Shown here: in pieces, positions 18,513 through 25,543 of the stretch
How positions within the stretch are numbered: position 1 is the first letter of the stretch
Layout of the letters: each line of letters starts with the position of its first letter
NCBI RefSeq assembly: GCF_001969445.1
Contig: NZ_CP017297.1
Span: forward strand, 4,278,001 to 4,342,000
Direction of reading: 5' to 3'
Length of the DNA: 64,000 nucleotides
DNA from: Brachybacterium sp. P6-10-X1
GTDB taxonomy: Bacteria > Actinomycetota > Actinomycetes > Actinomycetales > Dermabacteraceae
Position numbers and translations under genes: made by a program
The notes under the pieces: generated by a model
What the model was told of the DNA's origin: nothing
Databases searched by the model: none
Seen by the model: only the letters and a program-made list of their open reading frames with translations

Positions 18513-19280
18513 ATGACCCCCACCGACACCACCCCGCTGCGCGTCGCCGTCCTCGGCGCCGGAGGCCGCATGGGCTCCGAAGCCTGCCGCGCCGTCGAGG
18601 AGGCCGCGGACCTGGAGCTGGTGGCCCGGATCGGTCGCGAGGACCCCCTCGGGAGGATCGCCGAGGCCGGCGCACAGGTCGCCGTCGACCTCACCGTCCC
18701 CGCCGTCACCGCCGAGAACGTCAGCTGGCTCGTCGAGCACGGCATCCACGCCGTGGTCGGTACCACCGGGTGGACCGAGCAGTCCCTCGACCCGCTGCGC
18801 TCCCAGCTCGAGGGGGCCGACGGGGTCGGGGTGCTGATCGCCCCGAACTTCGCCCTCGGGGCCGTGCTGGCCATGCGCTTCGCCGAGATCGCCGCCCGGT
18901 ACTACGACAGCGCCGAGGTGATCGAGATGCATCACCCGAACAAGCTCGACGCCCCCTCCGGCACCGCCCGCCACACGGCGGCCGCCATCGCCCGCGGTCG
19001 GGCCGCCGGCGGCCTCGGTCCCGTCCCGGACGCCACCGAGAAGGACCCCGACGGAGCCCGTGGAGCGGTCGTCGACGGCATCCACGTCCACGCGGTGCGC
19101 CAGCGCGGCCTCGTCGCCCACGAGGTGGTCCAGTTCGGCGGACCCGGGGAGCAGTTCCAACTGCGTCACGACTCCTTCGACCGTGCGAGCTTCATGCCCG
19201 GGGTGCTGCTGGGCGTGCGCGAGGTCGCCGCGCACCCCGGCCTCACCGTGGGCCTGGACGGCTACATGGATCTCGGCTGA
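18513..19280 (+). CDS. dapB: 4-hydroxy-tetrahydrodipicolinate reductase
   Basis: The 255-residue enzyme reduces hydroxy-tetrahydrodipicolinate in the DAP/lysine pathway. The nucleotide-binding G-A-G-G-R-M-G is at 15-21. The catalytic/substrate motif H-H-P-N-K at 140-144 is followed by D-A-P-S-G-T-A. AGGAGA precedes ATG 18513; the frame opens further back, but nothing there resembles DapB. dapA is about 5.3 kb downstream and dapF lies near 37.7 kb. Confidence 0.96.
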   Translation: MTPTDTTPLRVAVLGAGGRMGSEACRAVEEAADLELVARIGREDPLGRIAEAGAQVAVDLTVPAVTAENVSWLVEHGIHAVVGTTGWTEQSLDPLRSQLEGADGVGVLIAPNFALGAVLAMRFAEIAARYYDSAEVIEMHHPNKLDAPSGTARHTAAAIARGRAAGGLGPVPDATEKDPDGARGAVVDGIHVHAVRQRGLVAHEVVQFGGPGEQFQLRHDSFDRASFMPGVLLGVREVAAHPGLTVGLDGYMDLG

Positions 19281-20901: not shown

Positions 20902-21630
20902 ATGACGGCCTCCCAGGACACCTCCGACGCGCCCCGGCCCACCGCTGCGCTCCCGTTGCGCGCCCGAGCTCTCCTGCTGGACATGGACGGCACCCTGATC
21001 GACTCCGGACCGGCGGTCGAGCGGGCCTGGAACACGCTGCTGCGCGAGCTCGGCACCGACCTCGAGTTCGGGCACGCCCAGCACGGCCGCCCCGCGCGCC
21101 AGGTGCTCGCCGAGCTGCTGCCCGGCCTCGACGCGGAGGAGCTCGACGCCGCGCATGCGCGCGTCGAGCAGCTCGAGATCGCCGACGTCGACTCCATCGT
21201 GACGCTGCCGGGCACCGAGCGCCTCCTGCGGGAGCTCGACGCGGCCGCCCGGCAGCTGGGCCGGGACACGTGGGCGATCGTGACCTCCTGCACCGCACCG
21301 CTGTTCGCGGCCCGCTGGGGCCGGACGGGGCTGGCCGAGCCCGCCCAGCTGGTCACCGCGGACCAGGTCCGACGGGGCAAGCCCGACCCAGCGCCGTACC
21401 TGCTCGGCGCCGAGCGCCTGGGCATCGCGCCGGGGGAGACCGTCGTCCTGGAGGATTCCGTCGGCGGCCTGGTCTCGGGGGCCGAGGCGGGGGCCCGCAC
21501 GGTCGCCGTGACGAGCACCACGCCGGCCGCGGAGCTGGCCCCGCTGGCGGACGCCCTGGTCACCTCGCTCGACGACCTGGAGATCCGCGTCGACGGCGAG
21601 GACCTCGTGCTGGCCCGCCGCGGTAGCTGA
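20902..21630 (+). CDS. HAD-superfamily phosphatase (GPP/beta-PGM-like)
   Basis: The 242-residue protein has catalytic D27-M-D29-G-T, the V-T-S motif II, a Lys in R-G-K-P-D-P (motif III) and the D-S-V-G-G motif IV. The small helical cap after residue 35 is typical of sugar-phosphate phosphatases and beta-phosphoglucomutase relatives. The substrate cannot be assigned. It is divergent from azlC. Confidence 0.85.
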   Translation: MTASQDTSDAPRPTAALPLRARALLLDMDGTLIDSGPAVERAWNTLLRELGTDLEFGHAQHGRPARQVLAELLPGLDAEELDAAHARVEQLEIADVDSIVTLPGTERLLRELDAAARQLGRDTWAIVTSCTAPLFAARWGRTGLAEPAQLVTADQVRRGKPDPAPYLLGAERLGIAPGETVVLEDSVGGLVSGAEAGARTVAVTSTTPAAELAPLADALVTSLDDLEIRVDGEDLVLARRGS

Positions 21631-21759: not shown

Positions 21760-24549
21760 ATGTGCGGAATCTCCGGCAGCTACGGATTCGGCGCCGACGC
21801 CGAGGGCATCGCCCGGCAGATGAACAGCGCCCTGGCCCACCGCGGCCCCGACGGTGAAGGCCTGTTCACGCACGGCCAGGCGTCCCTGGCGCACCGTCGC
21901 CTGTCCATCATCGACCGTGAGCACGGCGCCCAGCCGATGACCACGGCCGACGGCCGCTTCACGATCGTGTACAACGGCGAGACCTACAACTACCTCGAGC
22001 TGCGCGCCGAGCTCGAGGGGCTCGGGCGCACCTTCCGCACCGCCTCCGACACCGAGGTGCTGCTGCAGGCGCACGCCGAATGGGGCACCGCGGCCTACGA
22101 CCGTTTCAACGGCATGTTCGCCTTCGCGATCCACGATGCGTCCACCGGCACGGTCACCGTCGCCCGCGATCACTTCGGCATCAAGCCCCTCTACTACTGG
22201 ATCGACGAGACCGCGGGATCCGGCGGAGACGGCCCCCAGGTGCTGTTCGGCTCCGAGATCCGAGCCCTGCTGGCTGCGCAGCGCTTCGAGGCGGCGCCCG
22301 ACGATCGTGCCGTCTACCGCTACCTGAAGTACCGCGTGCAGGACGACGACTCCCGGACGTTCTTCCGCGGCGTGCGCCGCCTGATGCCCGGACAGGTCCT
22401 CGAGATCAGCGCGGACGGCACCTCGATCACGGCCTTCACCTCCCTGCAGCAGGAGCTGCGCGAGATCGCGGCGCGTCCCAGCCGCCCGTACAGCGCCGAG
22501 GTGGTCGACGAGTACCGCGAGCGCTTCGGTGAGGCGGTGCGGCTGCGCCTGCAGTCCGAGGTGCCGGTCGGCACCTCGCTCTCCGGCGGTCTGGATTCCT
22601 CCGCGGTCGCCGCCGTCATCGCCCGTCACCTGCGCGAACAGCCCCAGGACGAGAGCTTCAGCGCCGTGGGCGCACGGCAGAACACCTTCTCCGCGGTGTT
22701 CCCCGACTCCTCGAACGACGAGGAGCGGTACGTCGATGCGCTGCTGGAGGAGAACGCCGGCCAGATCACCTCCCACAAGATCCATCCGCAGCCGGAGACC
22801 TTCCTCGAGGACGTGCGCGACTTCGTGCGCACCCAGGAGGAGCCGATCATCTCCACCGGGCCCTACGCGCAGTACGCGGTGATGCGTGCGGCGAGCGAGC
22901 ACGTCACCGTGCTGCTGGACGGCCAGGGCGCCGACGAGATGATGGCCGGGTACAACCCCTACTTCTACGTCTACCTGCGCCAGCTGCGCCGCCAGAAGCG
23001 GTTCAAGGAGCTCGCGAGCGAGGTCGTCGGCTCGCGCGACATCCTGCGCAAGCTCGCCCGCACGAAGTACTCCGGGCGCACCTCGGTCCCGGTCGAGGCG
23101 CTGCTGAACTCGAGCTTCGTCGCCGAGCACAGCGCCGAGAAGGTCACATCCGTCCAGGACGACCTCAAGGAGCGTCTGCTCGAGGACACCTTCCGCTCCT
23201 CACTGCCCTCGCTGCTGCGCTACGAGGACAAGAACACGATGCGCTTCAGCATCGAGGGCCGCGTGCCGTTCGTGGACAAGGAACTGCTGAAGTTCCTGTT
23301 CTCCCTCGACGAGTCCGCGATCATCCATGACGGCTGGAACAAGCGGATCCTGCGCGAGTCGATGGACGGGATCCTGCCCGACGCGATCTCCAAGCGGCGC
23401 AACAAGATCGGCTTCACCACGCCGGAGGGGGAATGGTTCCGCACCATCGCCCCGGAGCTGATGGAGATCTTCGCCTCCGAGTCCTTCGCGAGCCGCCCCT
23501 ACTTCGACGCCCCCAGCGTCATCGCCCTGTTCGAGGACTACATCGCCCACCCCGGCAATCACGGCACGATGATGTTCTGGCGCCTGCTGAACGTCGAGCT
23601 GTGGATGCGCACCTTCTTCGACGACACCGAGGGCTCCACGCGGGCCCTGGGGGACGAGGCCGCCGCCGACGAGCGCGCGGCCCTCGCCGCCGCGGGCGAG
23701 AGCTCCGCGCCCGAGGAGACCAGGACCGCCGCAGCGGGGACCGCGGGTGCCGAGGCCGAGGAGCCCAAGAGCGACTACGTCGCCAACCCGGACAAGCAGC
23801 TGGACCTGGTCTCCGACACCGATCGCCACACCTGGCGCCGACTGCCCCTGCAGACCGCACTGGTGGCCCGCGGCGACGACCTCCAGGCGCTGGTGCGCGA
23901 GCGGGTCGAGCGCTTCGCCGCCTCCCTGCCCGCCGACGTCGTGCCCGAGGGGTCCCCGTGGTACTTCGTGATCAGCGAGAAGATCATCGCGATCACGCAG
24001 GGCCGCTCGTGGTTCACCTGGGAGATCGCGCCGCGTCCCGCCGCGAAGGTGCTCAGCCGCTTCGTGACCCGCACCCCGGCCGGCATCGGCCTGGGAGACC
24101 CGACCACCATGGAGCTGGCCATCCGCGAGGTCGGTCTGCCGCGGGTGGTGGCGGCCTCCGCGGCCGGCGCGGTCGGCAAGGTGATCGGCAGGAAGGGGCT
24201 GTTCTACGAGGTGGTCGGCGCGAACGTGCGCGCGATCGACGGGCCGACGCCGTACTCGGCGTTCCCCTCGAACGTCTCCGCGAAGCTGCCCCCGAAGGAT
24301 CCCGACGCCGTGTCCGCCTCGCTCTCGGCGGCGATCCGCGGGGCCGACATCCCGGTGGCGCTGCGCGACAGCTTCGTGGGCACGGTCGTCATGGACGCCA
24401 ACGACATCGGACGCAACGTGCTGGGCTCGGACGTCTCCGTCCCGCACGAGCGGCTCGAGGCGACGTTCGCCGACAATCCCCTCGGTCAGGGCCGCCAGCG
24501 CACCCCGCTCGCGATCCTGGTCGATCTCGGCGCCGCGTCACAGCGTTGA
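21760..24549 (+). CDS. asnB: asparagine synthetase B fused to a CofE-like (F420 gamma-glutamyl ligase superfamily) domain
   Basis: The 929-residue protein is about 300 residues longer than usual AsnB. Residues 1 to about 620 form a complete glutamine-dependent asparagine synthetase-type amidotransferase: catalytic C2, the H-R-R-L-S-I-I-D and Y-N-G-E-T-Y-N glutaminase motifs, and the pyrophosphate loop S-G-G-L-D-S-S at 275-281. A low-complexity Ala/Glu linker (about 625-670) joins it to a C-terminal domain (about 685-929). That domain resembles the coenzyme F420-0 gamma-glutamyl ligase fold: an I-S-E-K-I-I-A-I-T-Q-G-R strand at 738-749, G-D-P-T-T-M, I-D-G-P, K-D-P-D-A and V-V-M-D-A-N-D. No F420 genes are in the window. 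It lies between dapB and dapA, so an amidation step on DAP or peptidoglycan is possible. That role is inference. Confidence 0.9.
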   Translation: MCGISGSYGFGADAEGIARQMNSALAHRGPDGEGLFTHGQASLAHRRLSIIDREHGAQPMTTADGRFTIVYNGETYNYLELRAELEGLGRTFRTASDTEVLLQAHAEWGTAAYDRFNGMFAFAIHDASTGTVTVARDHFGIKPLYYWIDETAGSGGDGPQVLFGSEIRALLAAQRFEAAPDDRAVYRYLKYRVQDDDSRTFFRGVRRLMPGQVLEISADGTSITAFTSLQQELREIAARPSRPYSAEVVDEYRERFGEAVRLRLQSEVPVGTSLSGGLDSSAVAAVIARHLREQPQDESFSAVGARQNTFSAVFPDSSNDEERYVDALLEENAGQITSHKIHPQPETFLEDVRDFVRTQEEPIISTGPYAQYAVMRAASEHVTVLLDGQGADEMMAGYNPYFYVYLRQLRRQKRFKELASEVVGSRDILRKLARTKYSGRTSVPVEALLNSSFVAEHSAEKVTSVQDDLKERLLEDTFRSSLPSLLRYEDKNTMRFSIEGRVPFVDKELLKFLFSLDESAIIHDGWNKRILRESMDGILPDAISKRRNKIGFTTPEGEWFRTIAPELMEIFASESFASRPYFDAPSVIALFEDYIAHPGNHGTMMFWRLLNVELWMRTFFDDTEGSTRALGDEAAADERAALAAAGESSAPEETRTAAAGTAGAEAEEPKSDYVANPDKQLDLVSDTDRHTWRRLPLQTALVARGDDLQALVRERVERFAASLPADVVPEGSPWYFVISEKIIAITQGRSWFTWEIAPRPAAKVLSRFVTRTPAGIGLGDPTTMELAIREVGLPRVVAASAAGAVGKVIGRKGLFYEVVGANVRAIDGPTPYSAFPSNVSAKLPPKDPDAVSASLSAAIRGADIPVALRDSFVGTVVMDANDIGRNVLGSDVSVPHERLEATFADNPLGQGRQRTPLAILVDLGAASQR

Positions 24550-24604: not shown

Positions 24605-25543
24605 ATGACCAGCACCGCCCCGCGACCCGCCCGGCCGTTCGGCACGGTGGGGACCGCCATGGTCACACCGATGACCGAGGACGCCCACGAGATCGACCTC
24701 GATGCCGCCCAGGAGCTCGCGGTGCACGTCACCGAGCACGGCAACGACATGATCGTCGTCTCCGGCACCACCGGAGAAGCCCCCACCCTGACCGACGTCG
24801 AGAAGCTGGAGCTCGCGCGGGCGGTCCGTGCGGCCGTCGGCCCCGAGATCAAGGTCATCGCCGGCGTGGGCACCTACGACACCGCGCACTCGATCGACCT
24901 CGCCCGCGAGCATGCGAAGCTCGGGCTCGACGGCCTGCTGGTCGTGACCCCGTACTACTCCAAGCCCACCCAGGCCGGGATCGTCGCGCACGTCTCCGCG
25001 ATCGCCGACTCCACCGACCTGCCCCTGATGCTGTACGACATCCCCGGCCGCACCGGTACCCCGCTCGCCTACGAGACGCTGCTGCGCCTGGGCGAGCACG
25101 AGAAGGTCCTGGCGATCAAGGATGCCAAGGCGAACCTCCAGCAGGCTTCCCTGGTGATGGAGCAGACGGACCTGACGTACTACTCCGGCGAGGACGCCCT
25201 GAACCTGGCGTGGCTGGCGATCGGCGCCTCCGGCATGGTGTCCGTGGTCGGCCAGGTCGCCGGTGACCTGGAGCGGAAGATGGTCGATGCCGTAGACCGC
25301 TCCGACCTCGCCGCCGCCCGGGACGCCCATCACGGCCTCGTCCCCATCGTCGAGGCCATCATGAATCGCATCCCCGGGGCCGTCGCCGCCAAGGCCGCCC
25401 TCGCCCTGCAGGGGGTGCTGCCCCACGCCGCCATGCGTGGTCCCCACGTCCCCGCCGACGTCGATCAGCTGCGGGCGCTGGCCGAGGCGCTGGAGGCGGT
25501 GGACGGCATCCCCTCCTGCGACCCGGCTCGGAGACCCCTGTGA
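24605..25543 (+). CDS. dapA: 4-hydroxy-tetrahydrodipicolinate synthase
   Basis: The 312-residue TIM-barrel aldolase condenses pyruvate with aspartate semialdehyde, the first committed step to DAP and lysine. The Schiff-base lysine is K172 in A-I-K-D-A-K. Also present are S-G-T-T-G-E-A-P-T-L, Y-Y-S-K-P-T-Q and Y-D-I-P-G-R-T with the conserved tyrosine. It has its own promoter. Its stop overlaps the RNase J GTG start (GTGA), a pairing conserved in actinomycetes. Confidence 0.97.
   Translation: MTSTAPRPARPFGTVGTAMVTPMTEDAHEIDLDAAQELAVHVTEHGNDMIVVSGTTGEAPTLTDVEKLELARAVRAAVGPEIKVIAGVGTYDTAHSIDLAREHAKLGLDGLLVVTPYYSKPTQAGIVAHVSAIADSTDLPLMLYDIPGRTGTPLAYETLLRLGEHEKVLAIKDAKANLQQASLVMEQTDLTYYSGEDALNLAWLAIGASGMVSVVGQVAGDLERKMVDAVDRSDLAAARDAHHGLVPIVEAIMNRIPGAVAAKAALALQGVLPHAAMRGPHVPADVDQLRALAEALEAVDGIPSCDPARRPL

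Follow-up and report, generated by a model that had tools for sequence, protein, structure and literature searches.

Within the window, the whole 64,000-nucleotide stretch of Brachybacterium sp. P6-10-X1 DNA that was analyzed, one gene encodes an AsnB-type amidotransferase joined to a CofE-fold domain (Table 1). The CofE-like domain and MurT are mutually exclusive in the 47 genomes of the host family (Dermabacteraceae), and the two swap in place at two unrelated loci. Sequence comparisons further indicate repeated evolutionary loss of the active sites in the AsnB half, with the CofE-like half retained. Our preferred reading, held with somewhat more belief than doubt, is that the fusion acts as a two-headed peptidoglycan-precursor-modifying enzyme in the place of MurT-GatD.

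Table 1 Features of the fusion gene and its flanks, in positions of the window
Feature	Position	Strand	Basis or size
dapB, upstream flank	18513..19280	+	start by comparison with L068; named by eye
HAD phosphatase flanking the exchange slot	20902..21630	+	PF00702/PF13419
AsnB-CofE fusion gene	21760..24549	+	929 aa
Class II glutaminase domain, residues 1-240	21760..22479	+	PF13537, 8.4e-43
Synthetase domain, residues 241-622	22480..23625	+	PF00733, 2.9e-70
Linker, disordered, residues 623-666	23626..23757	+	pLDDT <50 in predicted model
CofE-like ligase domain, residues 690-925	23827..24534	+	profile matches, predicted fold, alignments
dapA, downstream flank of the slot	24605..25543	+	named from sequence by eye

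Residues 1-622 of the fusion form a complete AsnB-type amidotransferase, in which the glutaminase nucleophile Cys2 (21763-21765), an NGE motif (residues 72-74) and the ATP loop SGGLDSS (22582-22602) can be read from the sequence, and which scores over the cut-off of TIGR01536 (asparagine synthetase B). The full-length predicted model had a pLDDT of 84.9 and a pTM of 0.68, and the CofE-like domain modeled alone reached a pLDDT of 91.3. Strong structural matches of the domain model were to CofE structures only (CofE and the FbiB N-domain, PDB 2PHN and 7ULD), at 22-24% identity over the structural alignment. PF01996 matched the C-terminal piece alone at 25.1 bits, just at the cut-off, and 19 of 19 members of an alignment of the domain (A1). 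By fold and profile the C-terminal domain falls within the CofE superfamily (PF01996), which bears out the earlier note's reading of an AsnB fused to a CofE-like ligase. An hhalign comparison with three canonical F420_ligase proteins (46 columns, probability 27, E 7e-4) was weaker than the fold result. The domain has motifs of its own relative to CofE (SEK..QGR, GIGLG, IDG, D-x-ND-x-G and DNP), and 21 columns were invariant among 52 domain sequences, in all of which D147, D199, N201 and D202 (domain numbering) are conserved. By analogy with CofE, D827 (IDGP, 24238-24240) and D879 (MDANDIG, 24394-24396) are candidate metal ligands; the D-T-N motif of CofE aligns near D199-x-N201, and the other metal-binding Asp is paired by motif order only.

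Homology to CofE would also suit a role of this half in F420 or folate polyglutamylation, as would a second, canonical PF01996 protein in the host genome and a folate precedent, the CofE-type Chlamydia protein CT611 (FolC2), which is described as complementing an E. coli folC mutant (PMC1971073). However, true CofE (F420-0:gamma-glutamyl ligase) needs the F420 pathway, and CofD (TIGR01819) was over the cut-off in none of the 47 family genomes, on which ground an F420 role was rejected; the earlier judgement that ordinary F420 glutamylation lacks support stands. A folate role was rejected as well, since FolC is present, over the cut-off in 46 of the 47 genomes and below it in the 47th (G321), and no FolC2-like replacement of FolC was seen. 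We regard either role as highly improbable. What the fusion would share with CT611 is the recruitment of a CofE homologue to a non-F420 substrate. The canonical F420_ligase protein (152 bits; L036:7354-8622, C1:1447353-1448621) adjoins a WhiB gene in this host without CofD over the cut-off.

MurT (PF08353, MurT_C) was found in 9 of the 12 family genomes that lack the CofE-like domain and in none of the 35 that carry it (Fisher p 1.6e-7, uncorrected for relatedness); restricted to genomes with a completeness of 90% or more and a contamination of 5% or less, the counts were 9 of 10 and 0 of 32 (p 2.2e-8). The search covered 80 genomes, namely the 47 of the family, 21 named domain-positive genomes (24 in total, the other three being counted among the family) and, from the class sample, 10 domain-positive and 2 domain-negative genomes. 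As the 33 non-family genomes were hand-chosen, only the family test is unselected. The class sample gave MurT_C in 0 of the 10 genomes with the domain (four hold only distant relatives of it) and in both without it. Two of the 21 named genomes, Actinomadura roseirufa (68 bits) and Microlunatus speluncae (28.5 bits), combine the domain with MurT, and GatD adjoins MurT in both. MurT outside Dermabacteraceae scores as low as 28-38 bits, and its absences in Arthrobacter, Terrabacter and others are therefore less certain. Profile searches detected PF08353 neither in the fusion protein nor elsewhere in its own genome; relative to MurT-GatD the fusion is at most a functional analogue and not a family member. 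The function can be lost, because one genome (G313, 99% complete) holds neither system at the locus (dapB-HAD-thyX-dapA) and gave no MurT or domain match genome-wide; two less complete genomes (G320, G323) likewise matched neither.

The first slot has the order dapB ... HAD-[fusion or murT-gatD]-(thyX)-dapA-RNase J. It holds murT-gatD in all five MurT-positive Brachybacterium of the 47 (G300, G302, G306, G308 and G328; loci L269-L272 and L295), which lack the fusion, and a HAD homologue flanks it in fusion and MurT-GatD genomes. At one of these loci (L270), two proteins are encoded between HAD and dapA, one matching MurT_C/Mur_ligase_M (4e-26) and the other GATase_3 (1.6e-30). In NCBIfam their top matches are the MurT and GatD models of lipid II isoglutaminyl synthase, at scores that do not reach the equivalog cut-offs. 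The second slot, Microbacterium-like, follows sigA and holds a standalone CofE-like gene in L023-L025, L027, L028, L195 and L210, or murT-gatD in L291 and L292. Two genomes (G106, G187) have murT-gatD after sigA, in the place taken by the standalone gene in their domain-positive congeners and in Microbacterium records. Among the 27 loci L190-L216, 19 have a sigA motif upstream of the CofE-like gene. Both tested domain-negatives of this genus, two of at least eight in its family, have MurT (33 and 38 bits); none of the five domain-positive genomes of that family has it.

On a tree of dapA and RNase J, the MurT/CofE state at the dap locus changes only twice, the family genomes being related. So few changes would fit an enzyme that makes a soluble small molecule (a peptide amide or osmolyte), the exclusion of MurT being a coincidence of lineage. 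This would also agree with the similarity of the AsnB half to TIGR03104 (N-acetylglutaminylglutamine amidotransferase; 304 bits, below its 570 cut-off) and with neighbor clustering, in which 54 loci (51 fusions, L144, L168 and the standalone L207) revealed no neighbors shared across different host groups. Two independent in-place exchanges with murT-gatD and the repeated loss of the AsnB half alone speak against such a product, and we consider it unlikely.

For a two-headed enzyme in MurT-GatD's place, our preferred reading, the displacement itself points to the alpha-carboxyl of D-Glu at position 2 as the target. On the lipid-linked stem peptide, the CofE-like half would convert this carboxyl of residue 2 into an acyl phosphate with the help of GTP and two metal ions, much as CofE treats the carboxyl that it activates. 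Either ammonia, with D-isoglutamine as the product, or a small amino acid would then be coupled to it, and the AsnB half would hydrolyze glutamine and either feed ammonia to the ligase reaction or amidate the new terminal carboxyl. CofE is described as phosphorylating, with GTP and two metal ions, a carboxyl that the amine of an amino acid attacks (PMC10861534); for MurT, the proposed course is phosphorylation of the carboxyl of D-Glu and attack by GatD-derived ammonia (PMC6085368). Carboxyl phosphorylation followed by amine attack is, by this analogy, the chemistry that we propose as common to both. It counts against the proposal that the natural amine of CofE is an amino acid, not ammonia. 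The fusion would resemble MurT-GatD in its genomic slots, in the proposed site and in pairing a glutaminase with a carboxyl-activating ligase. In contrast to the Mur ligase and CobB-type glutaminase of MurT-GatD, it combines a class II AsnB and CofE in one chain, GTP is expected in place of ATP, and the amidotransferase half appears dispensable. A 2018 paper describes murTgatD as universal among Actinobacteria and amidation of the stem-peptide D-Glu as essential in several Gram-positive bacteria (PMC6085368). The open literature searched contained nothing joining MurT and GatD with a gamma-glutamyl ligase, or F420 and glutamate ligase with peptidoglycan and isoglutamine; "CofE-like" led to FbiB only, and nothing about the fusion or a glycine amide was among the matches listed. 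Were a CofE-fold enzyme to take this role in many Micrococcales, a core step of wall synthesis would have a second enzyme unrelated to the first, and a large family that currently carries an F420 name by default would gain a function.

Cys2 and SGGLDSS are intact in 23 of the 35 domain-bearing family genomes. Nine others encode full-length proteins without Cys2 and with an altered loop (G230, G307, G317, G327, G329, G332, G333, G335 and G336), the mildest loop changes being those of G329 (LGGLDTA) and G327 (AGGLGSS); contig ends truncate two more (G311, G314), and G298 has a frame break between its halves. The nine dead forms retain 94-100% of 72 invariant positions in the CofE half, compared with 17-70% of 66 in the glutaminase half and 20-61% of 102 in the synthetase core, as defined on 23 intact rows (G190 of another family included) and leaving out G298 (frame-broken), G311 and G314 (contig ends) and G321 (frame run-on). 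On the domain tree (G321 dropped, G311 unscored), the intact or dead state of AsnB changes five times, and a single clade of all 11 dead forms was rejected (AU p 6e-62). Across 15 pairs, dN/dS of a dead AsnB half was always well above that of the CofE half of the same pair, the values being rough because several pairs are near saturation. AsnB/CofE values were 0.22/0.05, 0.21/0.04 and 0.18/0.05 for Dermabacter pairs; 0.57/0.21, 0.44/0.10 and 0.62/0.23 for G307 with G314, G336 and G317; and 1.03/0.26 and 0.88/0.31 for G327 with G230 and G311. Five close intact pairs gave 0.13-0.19 for the AsnB half and 0.10-0.18 for the CofE half, and two distant intact pairs gave 0.41/0.33 and 0.51/0.48. Among the 51 fused GTDB loci from the best 80 of at least 468 relatives, 45 were intact by the same test; four are dead (L139, L157, L159 and L161), L154 carries DA in place of DS, and in L155 the Cys lies in a frame break.

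The CofE-like half alone appears to suffice for the exchange, given that AsnB is inactivated in some lineages and that a search for AsnB in two Microbacterium genomes came back nearly empty (no match in one, a 50-residue match at E 5e-4 in the other). G336 and Microlunatus speluncae (G349, where AsnB-like similarity extends upstream through one stop codon) each encode a fusion whose AsnB half is dead and, separately, an intact AsnB of that kind standing alone, as though the two activities had been divided between duplicates. Survival of the intact standalone form in two genomes speaks for an AsnB reaction of its own. On the preferred reading, the fusion would also offer a directly testable example of repeated decay of the first half in an enzyme that stays fused.

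A plain asparagine synthetase with an accessory domain would explain the TIGR01536 match and why the fusion is the only strong PF00733 protein of the host genome (241 bits; next best 26). We find this quite improbable: L485 and Y488 occupy the positions of the Asp-binding D and R of E. coli AsnB, presumably residues 384 and 387 (placed by carrying an E. coli alignment, residue 490 against 389, upstream by eye), and only G336 among the nine genomes with an inactivated half shows further AsnB relatives. TsnB9 hydroxyamidotransferase (PDB 7YLZ; 29% identity) is a 623-residue chain without a CofE domain. LtsA and other meso-DAP-amidating AsnB enzymes are not known to be fused to a ligase.

In mDAP-amidating AsnB, the positions of this D and R are likewise described as occupied by other residues (PMC8554201). 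The AsnB half could on this basis be an LtsA-like meso-DAP amidase and the CofE-like half could add Glu to a DAP precursor, given also the shared AsnB architecture with its TIGR01536 match, the mDAP-containing A4gamma peptidoglycan described for Dermabacteraceae, and the dapB/dapA neighbors, between which the earlier note had placed the gene. Such a pair of activities is improbable nonetheless. Fusions with intact AsnB occur in Arthrobacter and Sinomonas, A3alpha genera, leaving a meso-DAP substrate unsupported; the assignment is made at genus level, not for the strains carrying the loci, from descriptions of Sinomonas as a genus with A3alpha peptidoglycan (PMC6617354) and of L-Lys-L-Ala3 peptidoglycan in one Arthrobacter species (PMC3563742). 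The dapB-dapA placement is found in Brachybacterium only, and not for every copy (G307, G314 and G317 have theirs at other sites or on short contigs), and the AsnB half is inactivated in 9 of 35 family genomes. With the cytochrome oxidase motif used as a sign of LtsA-type synteny, no such neighbor was recognized beside the 30-35% AsnB relatives in L247, L248, L250 and L251, a result of little weight for or against.

Addition of D-Glu or D-Asp to the peptidoglycan bridge was also rejected, because a separate cluster independent of the fusion exists in its own genome (L256:7653-11419, C1:113652-117418), with two ATP-grasp-like proteins around an Asp/Glu-racemase-like gene. On sequence resemblance, these genes are candidates for building the D-Asp/D-Glu bridge in A4gamma peptidoglycan, and the ATP-grasp-like query matches 47 of 47 family genomes, those without the fusion included. 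The ATP-grasp label comes from a weak PF02786 match of a paralogue, the 422-aa query itself having no Pfam match, and the racemase label from a PF01177 match in L250. From the earlier idea of DAP-precursor modification, a cell-wall role probably survives through the displacement of MurT-GatD; the meso-DAP substrate and the bridge addition are unsupported.

Of 296 genomes sampled across the class, 14 matched the domain at E ≤0.001, two of them (G088, G285) by chance in unrelated proteins. A scan of GTDB contigs gave at least 468 relatives, and the best 80, retained for reading, comprised 51 AsnB fusions, 26 standalone genes and 3 others (contig-end fusions L144 and L168; standalone L207 in a long frame). 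Among these 80, the survey that had been suggested across actinomycetes places the fusion in many genera: Brachybacterium, Dermabacter, Helcobacillus, Terrabacter, Humibacillus, Flexivirga, Ornithinibacter, Schaalia, Gleimia, Sinomonas, Arthrobacter and relatives, Tersicoccus, Microlunatus and Actinomadura. Standalone genes occur in Microbacterium and in records of Clostridiales, Ruminococcaceae, Thermotogota, Bacteroidetes, Fimbriimonadales and Kaiserbacteria, mostly metagenome-assembled outside Microbacterium. On the domain tree, Dermabacteraceae copies form three to four separate groups, none with MurT.

B-type cross-linking chemistry in Microbacterium requires a free residue on the D-Glu alpha-carboxyl. 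A broader and doubtful extension, offered tentatively, is that the CofE-like family is a so far unrecognized, GTP-driven second solution for capping D-Glu-2, spread through Micrococcales, Actinomycetales and other actinomycetes and, as standalone genes mostly from metagenome-assembled genomes, reaching Clostridia, Thermotogota and Patescibacteria. An amino acid such as glycine would be ligated to the alpha-carboxyl and amidated where the fused AsnB is active; with AsnB dead or absent it would stay free, as Microbacterium would require. The available description of B. faecium peptidoglycan lists Ala, Glu and mDAP and no glycine, glycine is reported for B. vulturis and B. avium, and of three further Brachybacterium species two have it and one does not. 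The genomes taken for B. faecium (G303) and B. vulturis (G331) both carry an intact fusion and no MurT, and glycine therefore does not simply follow the fusion.

Several individual loci deserve mention. The CofE domain of a fused 888-aa protein (L026:8078-10744, G190) groups with the standalone Microbacterium form rather than with other fusions (support 97/95, with a long-branch warning), perhaps reflecting a second, independent fusion. An intact AsnB-CofE fusion in a Candidatus Nomurabacteria record (L167:6102-8735) may represent transfer or a binning error, and a Sporosarcina beigongshangi record (L188), with an Arthrobacter-type fusion locus and neighbors, may be mislabeled. The partner gene of the fusion in Arthrobacter and Sinomonas resembles an M3-type peptidase by eye and is uninformative. 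Terrabacter aerolatus (L149 and L162) has two AsnB-CofE fusions per genome, read directly, as do G341, G343 and G346, judged by open-frame length. Three distant CofE-like genes (L030:7996-10296, L033:7332-9635 and L029:2773-4986) overlap at their ends with a convergent MurJ-like gene, seen by eye, and in Microbacterium maritypicum (L195:8747-11585) the CofE-like gene adjoins an ATPgrasp_ST protein and two alanine-racemase-like genes.
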